This document shows, in pieces, positions 931 to 12,395 of a stretch of 64,000 nucleotides of DNA (its first letter is position 1; every line of letters starts with the position of its first letter). The stretch is from Deltaproteobacteria bacterium (GTDB taxonomy: Bacteria; Myxococcota_A; UBA9160; UBA4427), in the NCBI GenBank assembly GCA_029261855.1, contig JAJDAN010000021.1:319923-383922 (forward strand). Reading direction: 5' to 3'. The notes under the pieces were generated by a model. It was not told where the DNA came from and did no database searches. It saw only the letters and a program-made list of their open reading frames with translations. A program made the position numbers and the translations under genes.

Positions 931-1026
931 GACGGTACTCGTTCGGATGTAGGCTTGGGTGTAACCCTCGAGTCGGCATCGACATCGATTGCTTCGACCT
1001 GGCTCGAACAGTGGGAGCACCGCGCG

Positions 1027-3840
1027 ATGGCGCCCAGGAACCACAGGCTCGCGGTGGCGGAGGACTCGTGGACCCTTCGCCTCGGGGCGTTCCTGACCCT
1101 CTTCGGCATCCTGGCGGCTCACGCACTTCTCGAAACGGCACGGGACGCGCTGTTCCTCTCGAACATTCCCGCCGAGCGTCTGCCCTGGGTGTATCTGCTG
1201 ATCGCGGTCGTTGCCCTCGGGATCGCGAGGCTCTCGCATTCCGGTGCGGACAAGGGTCGCCACCGCGAGCGACTGACCGCCGTGCTGCTACTGGCCTCGC
1301 TCGTCACGCTCGCGTTCTGGTGGTGGACAGACCGCTCGGGTCCCTGGGTCTTCTACTCGCTCTACGTCTGGTCCGGGGTGATCTCGAGCATCATCGTCGT
1401 CAGCTTCTGGCTGCTGCTCGGCGAGCTGTTCACGATCACCGAGGCCAAGCGCTTCTATGCATCGATTGCCACGGGCGGATCCATCGGCGCCCTGGCGGGC
1501 TTCGGGCTCGCCACGGGACTGACCTTCTACATCGCCGCCGATTGGCTGCTGCTGGTATCCGCCTCCTTCTTTGCGGTGAGCGCCCTCGGCCCGGCCTTGC
1601 TGCTGCGCCCGTCTGGAACCACAGCGCCCACGACCGAGGCCGCGAAGCCGAGCGTCGCTCCGAGCGACTCCGACGCCGGCTCCAACAGCTTCTCGGCTGG
1701 CATCGCCGCGATCGCGTCTCATCCCTACGCGTGCCGTGTGGCCGTTCTCGTGGGACTGTCGACCCTGACGCTCACCTTCGCGGACTTCTTGTTCAAGAGC
1801 ACGATCGCGCACCAGGTCCCCGCAGACCGGCTCGGAACCTGGTTTGGCGGCATCTACCTCGCCCTCAACCTGGGCTCGTTGGGGATGCTCGTATTCGGCG
1901 TCACGCCGCTCATCCGTCGCCTCGGCATCCATCGGTCCCTCGCCGTACTGCCCGCTGCGATGGGGTTGGCGGCGGTCGGTTTGCTCGTCGGTGGCGCCCT
2001 GTTGCCGGTCCTGGCCCTGAAGGCCGCGGATGGCACCCTGCGCTACTCGCTCCAGAAGACCGCGCAAGAGCTGCTCTATCTGCCGATGCCGTCGGAGCTT
2101 CGCGCCCGGGTAAAGAGCTTCATCGACATTGCCGGCCAGGCGGGCGCGAAAGCCGTCGCATCGATCGCCATCCTGTTGGTCGTGGGCCTTCCCTCACACG
2201 ATCTGTTGTTGGCGGGTGGCGTCCTGATCCTGGCATCGGGCTGGGCCTGGGCCGCGATCGAGATTCGAGGCGCCTATCTCGACGTCTTCCGTCAGACCCT
2301 GAGCGAAGGGACGATCGCAACGCGAATCGATCACCCGGATCTCGACCTGGCCTCTCTCGAGACGCTCATCCGCGCCCTGAACCACCCCGACCCCCGTCAT
2401 GTCCTGGCGGCCCTGGCGCTATTCGAGGAGCGAGCCCGGGTCGATCTGATACCGGCGCTCATCCTCTACCACCCGGCCCCGGCGGTCGTCACCCGGGCGC
2501 TCGACCTGTTTGCGACGTCCGGACGCAACGACTTCCTCATGGTCGTCGAGAACCTTCTCGAACACGAAGACGCGGGCGTTCGCGCGGGCGCGGCGCGCAC
2601 GCTGTCGGCGACCTCTCCGAATCGGGAACGACTTCAGCAGCTCGCAGACAGCGACTGCCCGTGCATACGGGTCAGCGCGGTATCCGGCCTGCTGGTCCAC
2701 GGCTGGATCGACGAGTCCGACGCCAGCGTCGAGTTCGAGCGAGCCGTCCGCGACGCGGAGCCCGAAGCTCGCCTCGCGCTCGCCAACGCGAGCAAGCTCG
2801 CGTATTCCACGCTGCACCGCGAGCCGCTGGGGCAGCTGAGCCGCGACAGCGACCCGGAAGTCCGGCGCGAGGCAGTTCGAGCCATTCGCGCCAGCGACGA
2901 CCCCTGGTACACGCCGCAACTCGTGACACTGCTGGCCGACCGTATGGTTCGCGAAGAGGTCCGCCTGGCTCTGCTCGGACGCGGAGACGCCGCCCTGCAA
3001 GCGCTCTCCCGTGCGCTCGAGGACAGCGAAGTAGCGATTGCCGTCCGTCGACACATCCCGCGGACCCTGTCGCGCTTCGCCACCCCCGCCGCAGCCGAGA
3101 TCCTGCTGCAGTCCCTGGAACGACCTCTCCCCGGAATGGTCCGCTACAAGGTCCTGCGGGGTCTCGCACCGCTGCTGCGGGGCCCGATCGCACCGCTCGT
3201 CGACCTCGCGCCCGTGGCGCGGGAGGTCGAGTCGACCATCGATCGGGCGCTGCAACTCTTGCGCTGGAAGATCGAGATCGAGGAGGGCCACCGGGAGGAT
3301 GCCTCGCGCGCCACGTCCGGCGGCGCGTTGCTCGGGGAGCTGCTGTGCGACAAGGAGCGGCTCGCCATCGAGCGCATCTTCCAACTCCTGCAGCTGCTGC
3401 ATCCGGAGGAGGACTTCCGTGGAATCCTCGCCGGGGTCGACAGCGGCAGTCGTGCCGACCAGGCGAGCGGAATCGAGCTGATCGAGAACCTGCTCTCACC
3501 CGCGATGAGCCGCGCTCTGCTGGCTCTCCTCGATTCCGGTCCGGAGGCGACCCGCTGGCAGCGCGCCGTGGACCTGCGTCGGTCGGTCGTCCCCTATGCG
3601 GCGCTGCTGCACGAGCTGACCGAAGACGCCAGCGAGAGCGTTCGCGCCTTCGCGCTCCATCACCAGTCCGAGCTCGGCCTGACTGCCGCGGACGGATCGC
3701 CCGCGGACGTCGACGCCGAGCGGGCGAACCCGCTGGCGCGACTTCTCGACCAGGCCCTGGGACTGGTCGAGCGACTCCCCGAGGCGCGCATGCGCCGGCC
3801 CCTGCTCTCGCAGCCCGCGCCGGGAGATTCCCGTGGCTGA
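1027..3840 (+). CDS. NTT (ATP/ADP translocase family) membrane protein with C-terminal HEAT repeats
   Basis: A 937-residue protein. The first ~410 residues form about twelve hydrophobic helices resembling the NTT/ATP:ADP antiporter family (HALLETARDALFLSNIP near the start, GGSIGALAGFGLATGL, YSLQKTAQELLYLPMP). A low-complexity loop (TTAPTTEAAKPS) splits the two halves. Residues ~420-900 are soluble helical repeats of HEAT type (HPDPRHVLAALALFEERA, HEDAGVRAGAARTLSATS, SDPEVRREAVRAIRAS). I chose the ATG at 1027 because GGGAG lies 10 bp upstream; an in-frame TTG at 955 would add 24 poorly hydrophobic residues. The stop overlaps the next gene by 8 bp. In parasites such transporters exchange ATP and ADP; in free-living bacteria the substrate is not settled, so the transport substrate here is inference. 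The HEAT part may be a cytosolic binding scaffold. Confidence 0.85.
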   Translation: MAPRNHRLAVAEDSWTLRLGAFLTLFGILAAHALLETARDALFLSNIPAERLPWVYLLIAVVALGIARLSHSGADKGRHRERLTAVLLLASLVTLAFWWWTDRSGPWVFYSLYVWSGVISSIIVVSFWLLLGELFTITEAKRFYASIATGGSIGALAGFGLATGLTFYIAADWLLLVSASFFAVSALGPALLLRPSGTTAPTTEAAKPSVAPSDSDAGSNSFSAGIAAIASHPYACRVAVLVGLSTLTLTFADFLFKSTIAHQVPADRLGTWFGGIYLALNLGSLGMLVFGVTPLIRRLGIHRSLAVLPAAMGLAAVGLLVGGALLPVLALKAADGTLRYSLQKTAQELLYLPMPSELRARVKSFIDIAGQAGAKAVASIAILLVVGLPSHDLLLAGGVLILASGWAWAAIEIRGAYLDVFRQTLSEGTIATRIDHPDLDLASLETLIRALNHPDPRHVLAALALFEERARVDLIPALILYHPAPAVVTRALDLFATSGRNDFLMVVENLLEHEDAGVRAGAARTLSATSPNRERLQQLADSDCPCIRVSAVSGLLVHGWIDESDASVEFERAVRDAEPEARLALANASKLAYSTLHREPLGQLSRDSDPEVRREAVRAIRASDDPWYTPQLVTLLADRMVREEVRLALLGRGDAALQALSRALEDSEVAIAVRRHIPRTLSRFATPAAAEILLQSLERPLPGMVRYKVLRGLAPLLRGPIAPLVDLAPVAREVESTIDRALQLLRWKIEIEEGHREDASRATSGGALLGELLCDKERLAIERIFQLLQLLHPEEDFRGILAGVDSGSRADQASGIELIENLLSPAMSRALLALLDSGPEATRWQRAVDLRRSVVPYAALLHELTEDASESVRAFALHHQSELGLTAADGSPADVDAERANPLARLLDQALGLVERLPEARMRRPLLSQPAPGDSRG

Positions 3841-4786
3841 CTATCCCGTCGCCTCTACGCTGGCATCTCCCCTCGCCTCACCTCTCGATCGGGCGCTGTT
3901 CCTGCGGACCCAGCCGTATTTCGCCGACCTCGACGCGGGTGTCGTCGCACTCCTGGCCCGCGAGAGCCAGGAGCGCTTCTTCCGCCGCGGCGCGTGGGTG
4001 CTCGAGGAAGGCCGCCCCGCAGACCGGATCCTCTTCCTGGTCGAGGGCCGACTTCGCGGCGAGCAGGACGGGCATTCGCTCTGGGAGATCGAGGCGCCGG
4101 GCGGTGTCGGCCTCGCGCACTTGTTGGCACAAACGACCCGACCGCCCGGTTTCCGCGCGGAGAGCGACGTGCTGGCCCTCGAGATCGAGCGCGAGCCCTT
4201 CATGCAGATCCTCGACGACCACTTCGCCCTCACCCTGGAGATCGCTCGTAGCTGGAGCCACATGATCGCAGCGCTGGAACACGACGAGCAGCTTCCGGAG
4301 CTACCCCCCCTCCCCCCGGTTTCATCGCCCCCCCTACCCGGGGCCGGGACGAAGCTCGTCGACCATCTCGCCTTCGCACGACGAACGCCCTACTTCGAGC
4401 GAACCAATCTCACGATCCTCGCCGAGCTGTTCCGGACGGCACGCATGATCGGTCTGCAGGCCGGGCAATCGCTATACGAGGTGGGGGAACCCGTGGACTC
4501 CATCGCTCTCATCCTGAGCGGGAGCATCCTCAGCGAGGGCTACCGGCTCGAGCGCCTCGAAGCCGGCGAGTTGGTCGGCCTCTGGGACCTCATGACGGAC
4601 GACCCGCGGGAGCGGTCCGCCATCGCCGAGACCGAAGCGCGAGTCGTGTTGCTGGACCGCGCCCACTACGTCGATCTGCTCGAGGACCACTTCGACCTCG
4701 CCTGCGAGCTGCTCGCGATCCTCGCGCGAAGGCTCATCTCGGTCCAGAGCCTTCGCCTGTCGGGCGCGCAGGACGAGGCGGGCTAG
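3833..4786 (+). CDS. Protein with two cyclic-nucleotide-binding-like (Crp cupin) domains
   Basis: A 317-residue soluble protein made of two cNMP-binding-like domains (residues ~20-145 and ~180-310). Each has the beta-roll signature: RRGAWVLEEGRPADRILFLV in the first and LQAGQSLYEVGEPVDSIAL in the second. No helix-turn-helix follows, so it is not a CRP-type transcription factor. The phosphate-binding cassette is weak in the first domain (GGVGLAHLLA); the second keeps a GE pair (GELVGLWDLM) but not the usual PRxAT arginine arrangement, so nucleotide binding is uncertain. It starts with GTG at 3833 (GGAG six bases upstream) inside the end of the NTT-HEAT gene, so the two are almost certainly co-translated. 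The likely role is a cytosolic sensor or partner for the transporter; this is inference from the overlap. Confidence 0.8.
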   Translation: MADYPVASTLASPLASPLDRALFLRTQPYFADLDAGVVALLARESQERFFRRGAWVLEEGRPADRILFLVEGRLRGEQDGHSLWEIEAPGGVGLAHLLAQTTRPPGFRAESDVLALEIEREPFMQILDDHFALTLEIARSWSHMIAALEHDEQLPELPPLPPVSSPPLPGAGTKLVDHLAFARRTPYFERTNLTILAELFRTARMIGLQAGQSLYEVGEPVDSIALILSGSILSEGYRLERLEAGELVGLWDLMTDDPRERSAIAETEARVVLLDRAHYVDLLEDHFDLACELLAILARRLISVQSLRLSGAQDEAG

Positions 4787-4874: not shown

Positions 4875-5663
4875 TCAGAAGCGCACACCCACGACGGCGC
4901 CTCGGTGGGACGGCGCCAGGAAGAAGCTGGGCTTGGGGTCCACGGGCGCCGGGTTCCCCAGTGACCGGCGGTACGCGGCCAGATCCTCCTCCCCCCGCCA
5001 CGGCATCGTGAGCAGCATGAGTTCGCCGAAGGCAATGCCGACGCCTGCGGAGATGGCGGCATCCTCCAGGTCGCCCAGGGCTGCAATGACCCCGAAGCCC
5101 GCCATGTTGATTCCGACGTTCGACGCGTGCGGGACCCAGCTCTTCCGGCTGCGCGCGCGGTGGTCCACCGCCAGCAGCTGGGCCTCTCCGGCGCGGACCC
5201 GGGCTTCGAGTGCCTGTCGGTCGTCTCCGGGGATCTCGAGGATGGGTTCCGCGCCCAGGCGGCCGGGATTGGGCCACAACCCGAGACGCAAGCTGCCGAG
5301 TGTGGCCTTCGAAGCCGTCACGATACTGCTCACACGCTTGTCCCGATCGTTCGTGAGAACTGCCTCGGTCGTTCCCAGCGCGATGCCGATCCCCCATGCC
5401 CCCTGGAACGAGTACTGCCACAGTTGAGCGTTACCTTTGCCCGCGTCCAGGCGTCCAACCAGCGATGCGACCCTGGACTCGAGTTCCTCGTCACTCAGGT
5501 CCGCAAGATCTCCGGAGATGACCGCGTGCTCACTACCCCCGTCTGCAACCTCATCGCCACTCGCTACGGACCCGAACAGCAACAGGCTGGTGAGTCCCGC
5601 CGCGACCGACACGGCCGTTCGGGGTCGAAGGATATTCGCGAGGTCGTCGAGCAGGAGTCGCAT
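4875..5663 (-). CDS. Exported protein of unknown function, predicted outer-membrane
   Basis: A 262-residue protein I do not recognise. The N-terminus has a basic start and a hydrophobic stretch (TAVSVAAGLTSLLLFG) ending in VASG-DE, a plausible signal peptidase I site near residue 36. The mature part opens with an acidic helix (LADLSDEELESRVASLVGRL), then glycine-rich alternating segments, and ends in the residues AVVGVRF. A terminal phenylalanine preceded by alternating hydrophobics is the usual sorting signal of outer-membrane beta-barrels. It runs divergently from the kinase-like lipoprotein gene with only a few bases between the possible start codons, so the promoters must overlap coding sequence. 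Function unknown; cell-envelope location is a reasonable inference. Confidence 0.65.
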   Translation of the reverse strand: MRLLLDDLANILRPRTAVSVAAGLTSLLLFGSVASGDEVADGGSEHAVISGDLADLSDEELESRVASLVGRLDAGKGNAQLWQYSFQGAWGIGIALGTTEAVLTNDRDKRVSSIVTASKATLGSLRLGLWPNPGRLGAEPILEIPGDDRQALEARVRAGEAQLLAVDHRARSRKSWVPHASNVGINMAGFGVIAALGDLEDAAISAGVGIAFGELMLLTMPWRGEEDLAAYRRSLGNPAPVDPKPSFFLAPSHRGAVVGVRF

Positions 5664-5687: not shown

Positions 5688-6734
5688 TTGCGCCGCTGGC
5701 GGCGCGCGCATGGGCACATGGATGCGATCGCGCTGACTTGGTTACTCGTTGCGGTCAGCGGCGGCTGTACATCCCCGACCGTCACTCCGCCGCCCGGGCC
5801 CGCCCCCGTCGAGACAACCCGCGACGCGATCGCGGAGTTCCCCAACTGGCCCATACCCCCCCTCGAGGCCGAGCGCGTGCTCGCCGAGGGCGACCTGACA
5901 GTGCTCTCGGAACGCTACGCGGGCCGCGGGCTGACGGGCGCGTCGCGCGTCGAACTACGCGCCGCCGGACACCCCGAGAGCTTCTCCGCCAAGTGGAAGC
6001 CGATGCCCGCCGGACTCGACGGCATCAACAATGCGCCCCGCAAGGAGCTCGCCGCATACCAGATCCAACGCATCCTGCTCGAGCCCTCCGACTACGTGGT
6101 GCCCACTTCCGTCGCCCGCTGCATGCCGCCGGAGGCCTTTCCCGTGCCCGGCGACCATCACTCGACCCTGCCGGGGTCGAGCTGCGAACTGGGGATCTTC
6201 TCGCTCTGGCTCGAGGACGTGACCCTCCCCGATACGGTCCTGGACGAGATGCGATTCCGGAACGACTCGGTCTACGCCTACCACTTCTCGAACTTCAACC
6301 TGATCACCTACCTGCTCAAGCATCAAGACGGCCGCTACGGGAACTTCCTGGTCTCACGCAGCGACGGCGGACAGCGGCTGTTCTCCATCGACAACGGCGT
6401 GGCGTTCGGCGGCATCTGGTACAACTGGTTCGTTCCGAATTGGAAGCATCTGCGCGCGCCTGCACTGCGCCGCGCATCCATTGATCGGCTACGGGCGCTG
6501 CAACCCGCGGATCTCGCCTATCTCCGTACGGTGGCGCGCTTCGAGAGACTTCCGGACGGAAGCTGGGTCCCGACCGAGGCCGTCGGCGTTCTCGCCGAAG
6601 ACTACCAAGACGGCGTGCGGATCGAGGACGACGTCGTCGAGCTCGGCCTCGACGAAGACGAGATCGACGACATCTGGGAGCGCATCCAGGACTTGATCGA
6701 GGACGTCGACGACGGCGACCACGAGCTCTTCTGA
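5688..6734 (+). CDS. Predicted lipoprotein with PI3/PI4-kinase-like (HipA/FAM20-type) fold
   Basis: About 348 residues from the TTG at 5688 (n-region MRRWRRAHGHMD, then hydrophobic AIALTWLLVAV and SGGC). This resembles a lipoprotein signal with acylated Cys27, although -3 is Ser rather than Leu. A later ATG at 5718 would remove the basic n-region; an earlier GTG at 5667 is also possible. The mature part has the kinase-like landmarks in order: KWKP (Lys102) after a beta strand, RKELAAYQIQ (Glu120), a hinge-like GIFSLWLEDV, the catalytic-loop-like DGRYGNFLVSR (Asp214, Asn219), and the metal-site-like FSIDNGVAFG (Asp235). This set matches bacterial PI3/4-kinase-like and HipA/FAM20C-like kinases. 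The C-terminus is strongly acidic. It ends 34 bp before an NTT transporter gene. Kinase activity and export are inferences from motifs; function and substrate are unknown. Confidence 0.65.
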   Translation: MRRWRRAHGHMDAIALTWLLVAVSGGCTSPTVTPPPGPAPVETTRDAIAEFPNWPIPPLEAERVLAEGDLTVLSERYAGRGLTGASRVELRAAGHPESFSAKWKPMPAGLDGINNAPRKELAAYQIQRILLEPSDYVVPTSVARCMPPEAFPVPGDHHSTLPGSSCELGIFSLWLEDVTLPDTVLDEMRFRNDSVYAYHFSNFNLITYLLKHQDGRYGNFLVSRSDGGQRLFSIDNGVAFGGIWYNWFVPNWKHLRAPALRRASIDRLRALQPADLAYLRTVARFERLPDGSWVPTEAVGVLAEDYQDGVRIEDDVVELGLDEDEIDDIWERIQDLIEDVDDGDHELF

Positions 6735-6768
6735 ACCGGGCCCATCCAGGAAAGAAGAGGAGCGCAAG

Positions 6769-8109
6769 ATGGATCGAGGCGGCCCGTTGCAGACCTTCAC
6801 CGCCGTGCGTCCCGGCGAGCGCCTGCTCGCGGGGCTGATGTGCGGCTACTTCTTCCTGGTGATCGCGAGCTTCTGGGTCCTCAAGCCGCTCAAGAAAGCC
6901 CTCTTCATCGGCTACTACGACGGCAGCGGGCTGACCCTGGGAAGCTGGCAGCTCGGCGCCGCGCAGGCCGAGCTGATCGCCAAGGTCATGAACATGGGCG
7001 TCGCGTTCGTCGCGGTGGTTGTCTTCACGATGCTGGCGCGCCGCTTCCGCCGCCAGCAGCTGACCCTGATCTTCACCGCCTTCGTGGTCGCCTGCGAGCT
7101 TGCCTATGCGGGGTTGCTCGTCGAGCCCGGCGCCTGGACGGTGTGGAGCTTCTACCTGTTCGGAGATCTCTTCAGCACGCTGATGGTTGCGACCTTCTTT
7201 GCCTTCCTGAGCGACAGCGTCACACCCGACGCCGCCAAGCGGCTCTACGGACTGATCGGCCTGGGCGGAGTGGCCGGAGGCGTGTTCGGATCCACCGTCC
7301 TGGCCGCCGCCATCGAGTCGCTCGATCGCAGCGAGTGGATGGGGCTCACGGCCTTGTTGGGCGTCGTGATCGCGGCGGTGGCCGTCGCGGCCGGACGCAT
7401 CGTCGATCGAACGGAAAGCTCGGCTCTCGGGGCGCAGGCGACAGACGCCTCGCCGACGCCGCCCAGCGCACCTGCGGGCAACGCCGCCATCGAAGGGGCG
7501 CGCCTGGTCGGCCGCTCACCCTATCTGCTCTCGATCGTCGCCATCGTCGGCCTCTACGAGATCGTGTCGACCATCCTCGACTTCCAGTTCACGAGCACCG
7601 TCTCGCACTATCTGGACGGACCCGCGATCGGCAGCTACTTCGCGCGCGTCTACTCCGTAACCAACTTCGTCTCGCTCTTCGTCCAGGTCGGGTTGACGGG
7701 CTGGGTGCTTCACCGCCTCGGCGTCCTCGCGGCGTTGCTCGCCCTACCGGTCGCGGTCGCCGGCGGATCGGCCGCCTTCGCGCTGCTGCCCGCGCTCTGG
7801 ATCGGCAGCTCACTCAGCGTGATCGACAACGGTCTCAACTATTCGATCAACCAGTCCGCCAAGGAGGCGCTCTACGTCCCGACGACCCGGGAGGAGAAGT
7901 ACGGCGCCAAGGCCTTCATCGACATGTTCGTACAGCGCCTGGCCAAGGCGGTTGCGGTCGGGCTGAGTCTGGGGATCACGTTGGTCTTCGACGACTTCGG
8001 CTCGATCCCCTGGCTCTCTCTCTTCGTGCTGCCACTCGTCGCCGCGTGGCTCTTCGCCGCCCGCTACGCGGGGCGGCACTTCCGCCAGGTCGAGGGCTCA
8101 GTCCGATGA
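6769..8109 (+). CDS. NTT (ATP/ADP translocase family) membrane protein, short form
   Basis: A 446-residue membrane protein with about twelve hydrophobic helices, homologous in layout to the first half of the protein at 1027-3840: YFFLVIASFWVLKPLKKALF at the N-terminus, FYLFGDLFSTLMVATFFAFL, GLIGLGGVAGGVFGSTVLAA, and NYSINQSAKEALYVPTTREE (compare YSLQKTAQELLYLPMP in the larger protein). It lacks the HEAT tail. The ATG at 6769 is preceded by a good AGAGGAG Shine-Dalgarno. It follows the kinase-like lipoprotein by 34 bp on the same strand, so they probably share a transcript. Its end overlaps the convergent hflC by 12 bp. The family exchanges nucleotides across membranes in intracellular bacteria and plastids; the substrate here is not shown by the sequence. 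Confidence 0.85.
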   Translation: MDRGGPLQTFTAVRPGERLLAGLMCGYFFLVIASFWVLKPLKKALFIGYYDGSGLTLGSWQLGAAQAELIAKVMNMGVAFVAVVVFTMLARRFRRQQLTLIFTAFVVACELAYAGLLVEPGAWTVWSFYLFGDLFSTLMVATFFAFLSDSVTPDAAKRLYGLIGLGGVAGGVFGSTVLAAAIESLDRSEWMGLTALLGVVIAAVAVAAGRIVDRTESSALGAQATDASPTPPSAPAGNAAIEGARLVGRSPYLLSIVAIVGLYEIVSTILDFQFTSTVSHYLDGPAIGSYFARVYSVTNFVSLFVQVGLTGWVLHRLGVLAALLALPVAVAGGSAAFALLPALWIGSSLSVIDNGLNYSINQSAKEALYVPTTREEKYGAKAFIDMFVQRLAKAVAVGLSLGITLVFDDFGSIPWLSLFVLPLVAAWLFAARYAGRHFRQVEGSVR

Positions 8110-9000
8110 CGACGCCTCCCGCCCAACTGCTCCGGGGTCCGGGTCGAGGAAGCGGAAGAACGCGTGATCCGGAGGCAGCACGAGGGTCGTGCTGCCCTTC
8201 ATCGTCTTGCGATAGGCCTCGAGACTTCGGACGAATGCGTAGAAGTCCGGGTCCTTGTTGTAGGCCTCGGCATAGATCCGCGCCGAATCGGCGTCGCCTT
8301 CGCCGCGGGTGATCTCGGCCTTCGAGCGGGCTTCAGCGAGAGTCAGCTCGGCCTCGCGCTCGGCCTTGGCGCGCAGCTCACGGGCCTTGCGTTCACCCAC
8401 CACGCGCAGCTCGCGCGAGATCGCACGCCGTTGCTCGCGCATCTGATCGTAGGCGGCAGGTTCCGCCGCCCGGGGAAGCTCGATGCGATTCAAGCGGACG
8501 TCGACGATGTCGATCCCGGTCTCTCCCAACGCAACCTCGCTGGCGTCGTCCAGGGAAGCGATCACATCGGAACGGGCCAGCAGCTCGGCGCGCGTCGACC
8601 GTCCCACCTGCTCACGGACCCTCGACACGATCGTCTCGAGAATGCGTTTCTCGGCTTCGGGAAAGCCACGGGGGTAGCTGCGGCGGAACGCGTGGGCGTC
8701 CGATAGGCGCCAGACCGCGTAGTAGTCGATGATCAGGGACTCGCCGCCGCGGGCCAGCATCTCGGCCGGCGCCGCGTTCGCGTACTGGAGCCGGGCGTCG
8801 TACACGAGCACCGTGTCGACGACCGGAAGGCGGAGGTGCGGACCCGGCTTGTCGAGGATGTCCACCGCCTCACCGAAACGCAGCACGATCTTGGCCTCGC
8901 CCTCGCGAACGATCACGACGGGCCCCCAGCCAAAGCTCCCGGCCCAGAGCAGCGCGACGATGACCGCCGCAAGAACGATCACGGGGAAGAGCCATCTCAC
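8098..9000 (-). CDS. hflC: HflC, SPFH-domain modulator of FtsH protease
   Basis: A 300-residue protein with one N-terminal membrane helix (FPVIVLAAVIVALLWAG) and an SPFH/band-7 domain starting GEAKIVLRFGEAV. It has the HflC-type motif YNKDPDFYAFVRSLEAYRK near the C-terminus, which separates it from HflK. HflC pairs with HflK in large ring complexes around the FtsH protease on the periplasmic side of the inner membrane and controls degradation of membrane proteins. It begins with GTG at 9000 and overlaps the hflK stop by 4 bp (GTGA), so translation is coupled. Length is normal. Confidence 0.93.
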   Translation of the reverse strand: MRWLFPVIVLAAVIVALLWAGSFGWGPVVIVREGEAKIVLRFGEAVDILDKPGPHLRLPVVDTVLVYDARLQYANAAPAEMLARGGESLIIDYYAVWRLSDAHAFRRSYPRGFPEAEKRILETIVSRVREQVGRSTRAELLARSDVIASLDDASEVALGETGIDIVDVRLNRIELPRAAEPAAYDQMREQRRAISRELRVVGERKARELRAKAEREAELTLAEARSKAEITRGEGDADSARIYAEAYNKDPDFYAFVRSLEAYRKTMKGSTTLVLPPDHAFFRFLDPDPGAVGREASSSD

Positions 9001-10172
9001 GGCGTCCCTCCCCCGGCACTCGTCTCCCCGCGCGTCTTGCCCGAGCCCGTCTGCCCCTCGCCCGTCTCGCCCGAACGAATCTCGGACCCGAAGTGCTCGG
9101 CCGGGCGCGGCGCCAGTGCACCTGCACTCCCCGACCGACCGAGGTCCACGGGGATCAGCGGCACCACGCTGGCGGCGCCCGGCTCGATCACCAGCTTCTC
9201 GACGTCCGGCAGGACGTCTTCCATCGTCTCCAGGTAGAGACGGCTGCGCGTCACCTCGGGCGCCAGCTCGTACTCCACCAGCAAGGCGTCGAATCGGGAC
9301 GCCCGCCCCCGGGCCTCGAGGATGCGGGACTGCTTGTAGGCGAGCGACCGCTGGGTCAGCTCGATTGCGACCGCCTGGGCGCGTTCGAGGGTTTCCTTCG
9401 CATCACCGCGCGCCTCGGAGATCGCGCGCTCCTCGTCCTGGCCTGCGGCGATGATCTCGTCGAAGGCCTCCTGCACCTGTGCGGGCGCCTGAACGACCTG
9501 CAGCTCGATCTCCTGCACGCGGAAGGCCGAGCCCATACCGACGACCTCGAAGTAGGCGGCAAGCCTCTCTTCGAGCACCTCGCGCGCGCCCACCCGGATG
9601 TCGCTCTGCCGGGTATAGAGCACGTCGTCGACACTCATCTGTCCGACGACCTCTCGCACCGCCGCGCGCGCCGCGTCGTAGAGGGTCTCCTCGGGATTCG
9701 AGATCGCGTACAGATACGAGAACGGGTCCTCGATGCTGTACTTCAACACGTAGCCGAGGTTGACGATGTTGTTGTCCGCCGTCTGCATGGCGTTCTCGAA
9801 GGATGTCGTCGTGTCGCCGCGGGTGGGCGTCGCATCGTCGGGCAGGGCCTCGCGCTTGGGCGCGCCCGGCGCCCGGCGCTGGAGCCCGAACTCGTGCTGC
9901 CGAACAGCGGCCACGTTGACGATCTCGATGCTCTCGATGGGGGTCGGGAGGTGCCAGTGCAGACCCTCGTCCGCGACCACCCGGTCCCGCTCGCCGAACT
10001 GCAGGATGACCGCGGACTCGCCCGGCTCGAGGGTATAGAAGCTCGTCAACGCCCAGCCGATGATGACGGCCAGGGACAGCAGCCCCGTGGCCCAATTTGC
10101 GAGGGTGCGGGCTACCGAACGGCGGATGCCGTCCTCGTTGCCGAGTTCGTCTTCGTCGTCGCGGCGTGCCAA
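8997..10172 (-). CDS. hflK: HflK, SPFH-domain modulator of FtsH protease
   Basis: A 391-residue protein: a short charged cytosolic N-terminus (RRDDEDELGNEDG), one membrane helix (WATGLLSLAVIIGWALTSFY), an SPFH domain (EPGESAVILQFGERDRVV) with the HflK signature NLGYVLKYSIEDPFSYLYAI, a helical stretch rich in Ala and Glu, and a disordered Gly/Ser/Glu tail. The glycine-rich N-terminus of the E. coli protein is much reduced. It uses a TTG start at 10172, five bases after the stop of the upstream slipin gene. HflK and HflC form the FtsH-associated cage. Confidence 0.93.
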   Translation of the reverse strand: MARRDDEDELGNEDGIRRSVARTLANWATGLLSLAVIIGWALTSFYTLEPGESAVILQFGERDRVVADEGLHWHLPTPIESIEIVNVAAVRQHEFGLQRRAPGAPKREALPDDATPTRGDTTTSFENAMQTADNNIVNLGYVLKYSIEDPFSYLYAISNPEETLYDAARAAVREVVGQMSVDDVLYTRQSDIRVGAREVLEERLAAYFEVVGMGSAFRVQEIELQVVQAPAQVQEAFDEIIAAGQDEERAISEARGDAKETLERAQAVAIELTQRSLAYKQSRILEARGRASRFDALLVEYELAPEVTRSRLYLETMEDVLPDVEKLVIEPGAASVVPLIPVDLGRSGSAGALAPRPAEHFGSEIRSGETGEGQTGSGKTRGETSAGGGTP

Positions 10173-10177
10173 GCGGC

Positions 10178-10954
10178 TCAGCTCTCGTCGCTACCGCGAT
10201 CGTTCGAGAAGCCTGCCGCCGCGTCGAGGAAGGGGCGAATGAGATCGATGGGCAACGGGAAGATCGTCGTCGAGTTCTTGTCGCCCGCGATCTCCGCCAG
10301 GGTCTGCAGGTAGCGCAGCTGAAGGCCCATGGGCTCGCTGGCCAGCACGCGCGAGGCGTCCGCGAGCTTCTGTGCCGCCAGGAACTCACCCTCGGCCAGC
10401 ACGACCTTGGCGCGCTTCTCACGCTCGGCTTCGGCCTGCTTGGCCATCACGCGCTGCATCTCTTGCGGCAGGTCGATCTGCTTCACCTCGACCGCTCTCA
10501 CCTTCACACCCCAAGGCTCCGTCTGCTGGTCGATGATTTCCTGCAACTGCTGGTTGATGCGGTCGCGTTCGGCGAGCAACTCGTCGAGCTCCGCCTGGCC
10601 GCACACGGATCGCAGGGTGGTCTGGGCGAGCTGCGAGGTGCCGTAGAGGTAGTTCTCCACCTGGATCACGGCGAGCTCCGGATGCAGCACCCGGAAATAG
10701 AGCACGGCGTTCACCTTGACCGAGACGTTGTCCCGGGTGATGACTTCCTGTGCCGGGACGTCCATCACGATCTCGCGCAGTCCGACCCGGACCATGCGGT
10801 CGACGAAGGGAATGATCCACTTCAGGCCCGCACTCTTGACGCCCGTGAAGCGACCGAGTCGGAAGACCACACCGCGCTCGTATTCCGGAAGGATCCGGAA
10901 TCCCATGATGGCCAGCGCCAGGAAGACCACGACTGCGATCAACGGAGTCAGCAT
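10178..10954 (-). CDS. Slipin (stomatin-like SPFH protein)
   Basis: A 258-residue protein with an N-terminal membrane anchor ([19 protein letters not shown]) and a prokaryotic stomatin domain: [39 protein letters not shown] and the helical [17 protein letters not shown]. Slipins organise membrane microdomains and are characteristically encoded next to an NfeD protease-like partner, which is the next gene upstream here (13 bp gap). The typical slipin/NfeD order is kept, and hflK follows immediately, so one transcript carries three SPFH proteins. Good Shine-Dalgarno (GAGGGG) before the ATG. Confidence 0.9.
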
Positions 10955-10967
10955 GAACCTTGCCCCC

Positions 10968-12395
10968 TCACTTGCTCTCTGCGCGGCGGACCCGCAACGT
11001 CAGCCCCTCGACGGCCACCACTTCGACAGGCTCCCCTTCGGCGATCGGCTCGCCACCCTCGGCCCGGACATTCCAGTACTCGCCACGCACGAAGACTTTT
11101 CCCTTCGGATCGAGCGCGGATACAGCGCGGCCCACCAGGCCGATGATCTCGTCCACCCCCGACGTGGGCTTCAGCATCATGCTGCGACCCACGGAGAACA
11201 CGACGAGGCCGCCGAAGATACACATGCCGGCGACCGTGGGCACCAGCACGGTCCAGAAGGAAACCGTGAGATCGCTCAGCTCGGGCTGGTCGAAGACCAT
11301 GGTGCCCCCCAGCAGGATGCATAACGCACCGGCGGCGAACAGCGCACCAAAGGACGTAAAGAAGATCTCCGCGACGAACAGCGCCAGGCCCAGCAGGATG
11401 AGCATGAGGCCCACCCACGAGAAGGGCATCAGGTCGAAGCCGATACCCGCCAGCAACAGGCAGACCAGCCCCGCGAGGCCGGGAAAGAGCAGGCCCGGGT
11501 TGTTGGCTTCGATGTAGAGACCGAGTCCGCCGAGCAGCAGCAACACGAGCGTGATGTTGGGGTGCGCGACGAAGTCGAAGACCTTCTGGACCAGGGTCAT
11601 CTCGATGGGTACGACCTGGGCACCGGTGAGGGACAGGGTGACCGGTTCACCTGCCACCTTGACCTCGCGCCCTTCGACCGCGGCGAACAGCGCCGTGCGG
11701 TCTTCGGCCACGAGATCGATCACGTTGAGTTCGAGGGCCTCCTGCTCGCCGATGGCCACCGAATCACGCACGGCCTTGACGACCCACTCGACGTTGCGGT
11801 TGCGCTCTTTGGCGATGGTCTCCGCGTAGGCGGCGAGCAGATTCTCGGCCTTCTCCATCGACAGGTTTCGCATCACCGGGGCGGCAGGGTTCGCGTCGGA
11901 GGCATCCCCGTCGGTCTTGTCTTCTCCGGCCTTGTTCTTCGGATCTGCAGGCGGAGCCGCGGGCACCTGGTCCCCGCCGCCCACACCCACGGGATGGGCC
12001 GCGCCAATGCTCGTGCTCGGGGCCATGGCGGCCACGTGTCCGGCGACGGTGATATAGGTGCCTGCAGATGCTGCCCACGCGCCCCGCGGCGCGACGTAGA
12101 CGATCACCGGGACCTTCGCGTTGAGGATGGCCTGGATGATTTCCTTGGTGGCGCTCACGAGGCCGCCTTCGGTGTCCATCTCGATCAACAGGGCGTCGGC
12201 ACCGTCCGCCTCGCTCTGCGCGACGGCCTGCACGATGTAGTCGGCGGACGCCGGGTTGATGGTGCCCGCGATGGTCGCCAGATTGACCCGGGGTGCAGCC
12301 GTGGACGCGCCCGCCACCAGCGTCAGCGAGACGAGCACCACGAGCACAGACAGCCACGCTCCCAGCGAAGCGCGACGTGCGGCAGCCTGGTTCAT
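10968..12395 (-). CDS. NfeD-family membrane serine protease
   Basis: A 475-residue protein of the long NfeD type. A signal peptide ([20 protein letters not shown]) precedes a ClpP-like protease domain (residues ~40-215) with [14 protein letters not shown] and the nucleophile region [15 protein letters not shown] (Ser in SAGT). About four to five hydrophobic helices follow ([35 protein letters not shown]), then a C-terminal OB-fold NfeD domain ([20 protein letters not shown]). The archaeal homologue cleaves the C-terminal tail of its stomatin partner; by analogy this one probably acts on the slipin encoded next. An insert rich in Pro/Asp/Lys (residues ~140-175) interrupts the protease domain. 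Its ATG overlaps the coaBC stop by 4 bp. Confidence 0.9.

Follow-up and report, generated by a model that had tools for sequence, protein, structure and literature searches.

Kinase-fold proteins with an intact catalytic set are tied, both physically and phyletically, to NTT nucleotide transporters and to exported phosphatases. The member at the center of this analysis is encoded in a 64,000-nucleotide stretch (the window, meaning the whole of the DNA analyzed) on contig C21 of a 6.96 Mb deltaproteobacterial genome. Here an open frame at 5688–6734 and an NTT open frame at 6769–8109 lie on the same strand, 34 bp apart from stop to ATG, as the original prediction had stated. The locus probably represents a reversible extracytoplasmic phosphorylation module that would be fed with ATP by the NTT and would act on a target that is most likely a protein. 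The side-by-side occurrence of a kinase, a protein of the ATP-carrier family and often a phosphatase suggests that many uncultured bacteria carry out phosphorylation outside the cytoplasm.

The predicted exported, lipoprotein-like kinase-fold protein (5718–6734, + strand) was defined from its open reading frame, sequence conservation, an AlphaFold2 model and Foldseek searches. Counted from the first in-frame ATG at position 5718, it is 338 residues long; GTG 5667, TTG 5685 and TTG 5688 are alternative upstream starts. We number residues from ATG 5718. The earlier numbering used TTG 5688, one of several candidate starts, and its positions therefore shift by 10, so that K102 becomes K92, E120 becomes E110, D214 and N219 become D204 and N209, and D235 becomes D225. 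The last of these belongs to the metal-binding motif D225-N226-G227. The full set of PI3/4-kinase-like landmarks that had been read from the sequence is real, with all five residues invariant in 20 order-level homologues. The window genome contains a single copy of the kinase.

Neither the kinase sequence itself nor a profile of it had a significant match among PDB sequences (the best, at E 0.2–0.3, were unrelated enzymes), so the assignment of a fold rests on structural models. Using the family alignment, we generated AlphaFold2 models of two distant members, the window protein (pLDDT 89.6, pTM 0.86) and a member from KSB1, L113 (pLDDT 92.6, pTM 0.90). When compared with the PDB using Foldseek, both models have PI4KII as their top match (E 4.8e-8 for the window protein and 1.8e-7 for L113). 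The TM-scores of the PI4KII matches are 0.34–0.49, with 13–19% identity, and the match is therefore a distant one. The window model also matches Hydra Fam20 (E 1.4e-5), and the L113 model matches Fam20C with bound Mn/ADP (4kqb, E 6.5e-6, TM 0.52) and the Fam20C–Fam20A complex in 5yh2 (TM 0.57). Structure prediction followed by a fold search had been proposed as a check on the kinase assignment, and two independent models of distant members agree in having PI4KII and Fam20/Fam20C as their best matches. As judged from the models, the family has a kinase fold like those of PI4KII and Fam20.

At the level of sequence families, PF00454 (PI3_PI4_kinase) matches the window kinase below threshold (14.4 bits, E 0.036, with a cut-off of 27.1) and recurs in 34 of 63 homologues, with a best E of 1.8e-5. 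The Fam20C model (PF06702) gives no clear match, being found in five of the 63 members with a best E of 0.034. Because neither Pfam sequence model is satisfied, we do not file the family as a member of Fam20 or of PI4KII. Pfam CotH has no match in the window protein or the 63 homologues, and an NCBIfam search of the window kinase returned nothing.

Kinase homologues are present in 22 of the 98 genomes covered by a search of relatives, the window genome included. A search of GTDB contigs with the window kinase as a single query gave no match; a scan of the same contigs with an alignment (profile) query gave 74 kinase loci, which span Myxococcota and other 'Deltaproteobacteria', Gemmatimonadota, Kiloniellales, Gammaproteobacteria, KSB1, Calditrichota, Bacteroidota and Acidobacteriota. 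All of the loci come from uncultured or metagenome-assembled genomes, and the family has no characterized member. In 63 aligned homologues from several phyla, K92, N104, Q117, D204, D225, N226, G227, G310 and E315 are invariant, and E110, N209 and R108 are among the residues conserved in at least 90%. Three members (L074, L076 and L078) have Gln in place of the catalytic-loop Asn, and this subclade is still found in a cluster of kinase, NTT and Y_phosphatase3 genes. Fragmentary remnants of the kinase also occur, one with disrupted frames (L054, G010:C78) and one with a shortened frame adjoining an NTT (L053, G003:C129).

The kinase tree has two halves. The first consists mainly of lipoproteins and contains the Deltaproteobacteria, the Kiloniellales and one Acidobacteriota; members of the second, from Gemmatimonadota, Gammaproteobacteria and Bacteroidota/KSB1/Calditrichota, have cleavable signals. 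Judged by inspection and by the lipobox pattern, an export signal occurs in every clade, consistent with the proposal that the kinase is exported. Lipoprotein-type signals are seen in the Myxococcota and Kiloniellales kinases and cleavable Sec-type signals in those of Gemmatimonadota, Gammaproteobacteria and KSB1; the Sec signals of the second half end in motifs such as AQ-D. A cytosolic kinase was rejected because of these signals across clades. As for a lipoprotein-like signal on the window kinase, most relatives in the first half have clear lipoboxes (LTAC, LAAC, LALGC, LGLGC and similar), but the VSGG-C of the window protein is a poor lipobox behind an uncertain start codon and is the weakest point with regard to location. 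A Cys135–Cys156 disulfide was considered as family-wide proof of export and was rejected, since members of the second half mostly lack both cysteines.

A survey of gene neighborhoods, which had likewise been proposed as a check, found an NTT within 5 kb of 44 of the 75 kinase genes, across five named phyla, and an NTT in 40 of 40 kinase-bearing genomes. For kinases with at least 5 kb of sequence on both sides the count is 23 of 37; no NTT lies within 5 kb of the other 31 kinases (14 of those with full flanks). Chance adjacency was rejected, since the density of NTT genes in kinase-bearing relatives (∼0.68 per Mb) predicts an adjacent NTT in only ∼0.9% of cases. Inherited synteny alone was rejected as well. 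The NTT lies downstream in tandem in 11 cases, upstream as an NTT-HEAT fusion in 21, convergent in nine and divergent in three, and the six arrangement types imply no fewer than 14 changes along the kinase tree; the pairing has therefore outlived many rearrangements.

The association extends to gene content. An NTT is present in 21 of 21 kinase-bearing relatives versus 38 of 77 relatives without the kinase (p 5.8e-6) and, within the Gemmatimonadota class, in 25 of 25 kinase-bearing genomes versus 91 of 124 without it (p 0.0013), counts that treat as independent genomes that are not fully so. In the same class, 19 of 26 kinases are within 6 kb of an NTT, and all 19 further kinase-bearing genomes that were checked contain an NTT, also where the two genes are not adjacent. 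The immediate neighbors of ten kinases, most of them without a nearby NTT or phosphatase, share no common theme and include MatE, patatin, VTT, MTTB and cytochrome genes among others.

The window NTT (6769–8109, + strand) is a single-domain NTT (TLC) nucleotide transporter of 446 residues, identified from PF03219, PDB matches and residue mapping. It is a clear TLC-family protein (69.8 bits against PF03219, with a cut-off of 21; E 2.6e-19), and its nearest solved relatives are the ADP/ATP carriers 9j3j and 9j3n (PDB, E 2.7e-13). Its score against TIGR00769 is 67.3 bits, far under the cut-off of 387 for classical NTP/NDP exchangers. K72, D133, D271 and K393 occupy the places of K155, E245, E385 and K527 in Arabidopsis NTT1 (AtNTT1). 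Mutation of AtNTT1 at K155, E245 or K527 affects binding or transport (PMC3306366). The window NTT thus keeps Lys, Asp, Asp and Lys at these places, and a clearly non-nucleotide substrate, a possibility weighed in the original prediction, is not indicated. The NTTs of L064, L074, L076, L078, L085 and L091 form a close group with the same four residues. Kinase-paired NTTs of several other clades have residues such as Ser or Asp instead of Lys at the K155 and K527 places, and because of these differences their substrate may not be ATP. Judging from these residues, ATP is best supported as the predicted substrate for the group of the window NTT only.

Exported phosphatases of three kinds flank 35 of the 75 kinases, as found by neighbor analysis and Pfam, with two kinases at one locus. 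The commonest is a PPP/Shewanella-like metallophosphatase, which occurs at 25 loci in Gemmatimonadota, Gammaproteobacteria, KSB1, Calditrichota and Bacteroidota; 'Shewanella-like' is our reading of its motifs, and the Pfam assignment is Metallophos. A lipoprotein Y_phosphatase3 occurs at six loci in Deltaproteobacteria and Kiloniellales, one of them matching with an E of 7.8e-69, and another kind of metallophosphoesterase lies beside the kinase at three loci. Nearly all of the kinase-linked phosphatases carry export signals. Phosphatases from different groups that fill one role next to a single kinase family are what would be expected of a reversible phosphorylation module. None of these three exported types was found next to the window kinase itself. 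Elsewhere in the window genome there are three Y_phosphatase3 genes, unlinked to the kinase; one of these (L133, G000:C77) encodes a protein with a lipoprotein-like N-terminus and is a possible unlinked partner phosphatase.

A second type of enzyme, with PPDK_N and PEP-utilizer domains, shares clusters with NTTs at L052, L081, L082, L083, L088 and L090; the domains were checked with Pfam in L082 (2216–5164). All five of the proteins with a readable N-terminus have a Sec-like signal. The PPDK_N protein is a candidate for a second exported ATP user fed by the NTT, where we infer the use of ATP because of the domain. A full-length homologue of this exported protein was not found in the window genome.

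The model that best accommodates these observations is one in which the kinase would be exported by Sec, lipid-anchored in the window organism and released into the periplasm in other phyla, and would use ATP to phosphorylate a target in the periplasm or on the cell surface, most likely a protein. The inner-membrane NTT encoded next to it would bring cytoplasmic ATP out and swap it for the ADP formed. The linked exported phosphatases, of a type that depends on the phylum, would reverse the mark. We infer here kinase activity, a protein substrate, and ATP/ADP exchange together with its direction (export, rather than import or the transport of another nucleotide). Four contrary outcomes had been named beforehand, concerning fold, location, neighbors and NTT substrate, and none of them was observed. 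Beyond what the original prediction had to go on, the exported phosphatases beside the kinases and the exported PPDK_N enzyme beside NTTs lend further support. As a plausible but tentative extension, free-living Gram-negative bacteria of several phyla may keep ATP in the periplasm, exported by NTTs in exchange for ADP and feeding both the kinase and the PPDK-like enzyme, with reversible phosphorylation controlled by phosphatases and, in Gemmatimonadota, by two-component systems.

It is rather unlikely that the same module has a lipid, a glycan or a small molecule as the target of its kinase instead of a protein. Such a target would suit a protein whose closest solved fold is that of the lipid kinase PI4KII and which, in the window organism, is probably anchored to the membrane. 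Phosphatidylinositol is the substrate of PI4KII, and xylose that of Fam20B. Some of the kinases adjoin a patatin gene (L112) or a gene with a VTT domain (L089), and the relatives of Y_phosphatase3 include lipid phosphatases. However, half of the kinase family has a cleavable signal and would be soluble in the periplasm, and the commonest neighboring phosphatase is of the PPP/metallophosphatase kind, which acts on proteins in other systems.

Phosphorylation of a protein target also has to be weighed against a locus for scavenging nucleotides or phosphate, in which the NTT would import extracellular nucleotides, the phosphatases would strip phosphate and the kinase-fold protein would have an accessory or regulatory part. 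The NTTs that have been characterized come from importing parasites or from plastids (PMC5381601). Exported metallophosphoesterases often serve phosphate scavenging, and genomes of these phyla commonly encode NTTs whether the kinase is present or absent. Scavenging nevertheless offers no obvious use for a kinase whose catalytic residues are conserved, and it is the kinase that stays constant while the phosphatases belong to three unrelated groups. No 5'-nucleotidase or nuclease was found among the neighboring genes scanned, and the exported PPDK_N proteins beside NTTs would also need ATP. We regard a scavenging function as improbable on these grounds. That the protein is a pseudokinase or carries out other chemistry (AMPylation or glutamylation) with nucleotide still supplied by the NTT is very improbable: the kinase-fold proteins SelO and SidJ do perform non-kinase chemistry, and Gln replaces the catalytic-loop Asn in L074, L076 and L078, but the invariance of K92, D204 and D225 and the conservation of E110 and N209 in at least 90% of the 63 homologues are as in active kinases.

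The periplasm is usually described as being without ATP. A 2014 paper argued from ATP-dependent processes in the periplasm that some bacteria must have ADP/ATP transport, and a 2020 review gave the route of ATP to the periplasm as unknown. A survey found NTTs in many free-living bacteria, with no function known for them there (PMC5381601). An ATP-fed phosphorylation module of the kind proposed here bears on both questions, because NTTs could be the exporters of ATP for exported kinases. Such a module would also parallel, in bacteria, the Fam20 secretory-pathway system, and it is open to experiment, since the genes, residues and partner phosphatases are named.

In the open-access literature we found no earlier account of bacteria that pair an exported kinase with an NTT. 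The novelty lies in the system, and the component parts belong to known superfamilies. Like the Fam20 kinases, the window family has a predicted kinase fold, a predicted location outside the cytosol, a presumed need for imported ATP and a DNG-type metal-binding motif region; unlike them, it is bacterial, shares 12–14% identity over the fold alignment and is gene-linked to NTTs. PI4KII is the best Foldseek match of both models, and its Pfam family PF00454 is the recurrent weak sequence match, but PI4KII phosphorylates a lipid at the cytosolic face, whereas the window family is predicted to be exported. To our knowledge, eukaryotic Fam20 is not gene-linked to an NTT, and no CotH gene is paired with a nucleotide transporter. 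The CotH spore-coat kinases of Bacillus (PMC7821199) resemble the family as bacterial atypical kinases that act on surface-layer proteins. The window transporters have the same TLC, HEAT and cyclic nucleotide-binding architectures as NTTs in the accessible part of the survey, which makes no mention of a link to an exported kinase and phosphatase (PMC5381601). They would differ in function from known NTTs, which supply parasites or plastids with imported ATP or nucleotides or, as proposed for 'Ca. Azoamicus', exchange ATP/ADP with a ciliate host (PMC7969357).

The window locus includes a second NTT, an NTT-HEAT fusion of 961 residues (955–3840, + strand) identified from Pfam (TLC, 27 bits with a cut-off of 21; HEAT_2, 61 bits) and from the A3 profile (E 4.6e-114). 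The end of its gene is overlapped by that of a cyclic nucleotide-binding domain protein (3833–4786, + strand; PF00027, 75 bits in two stretches), and the same order is found in L031/L059. The cyclic nucleotide-binding protein probably regulates the NTT-HEAT transporter, and together the two upstream genes could regulate the flow of nucleotide. Between them and the kinase, and divergent from it, is a gene for a 262-residue protein that begins with a signal-like stretch and has no Pfam match (4875–5663, − strand). It is kept in this position in L031/L059, and whether it belongs to the kinase–NTT module is uncertain. Convergent to the NTT, on the − strand at 8098–12395, are genes that by inspection, rather than by family search, encode HflC/HflK-like SPFH proteins, a third SPFH-like protein and an NfeD-like membrane protein. 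In the Gemmatimonadota loci, the NTT and the kinase are often separated by genes for a histidine kinase and a response regulator, as at L110 (7594–8936), where the NTT gene is of the NTT-HEAT-cNBD form.
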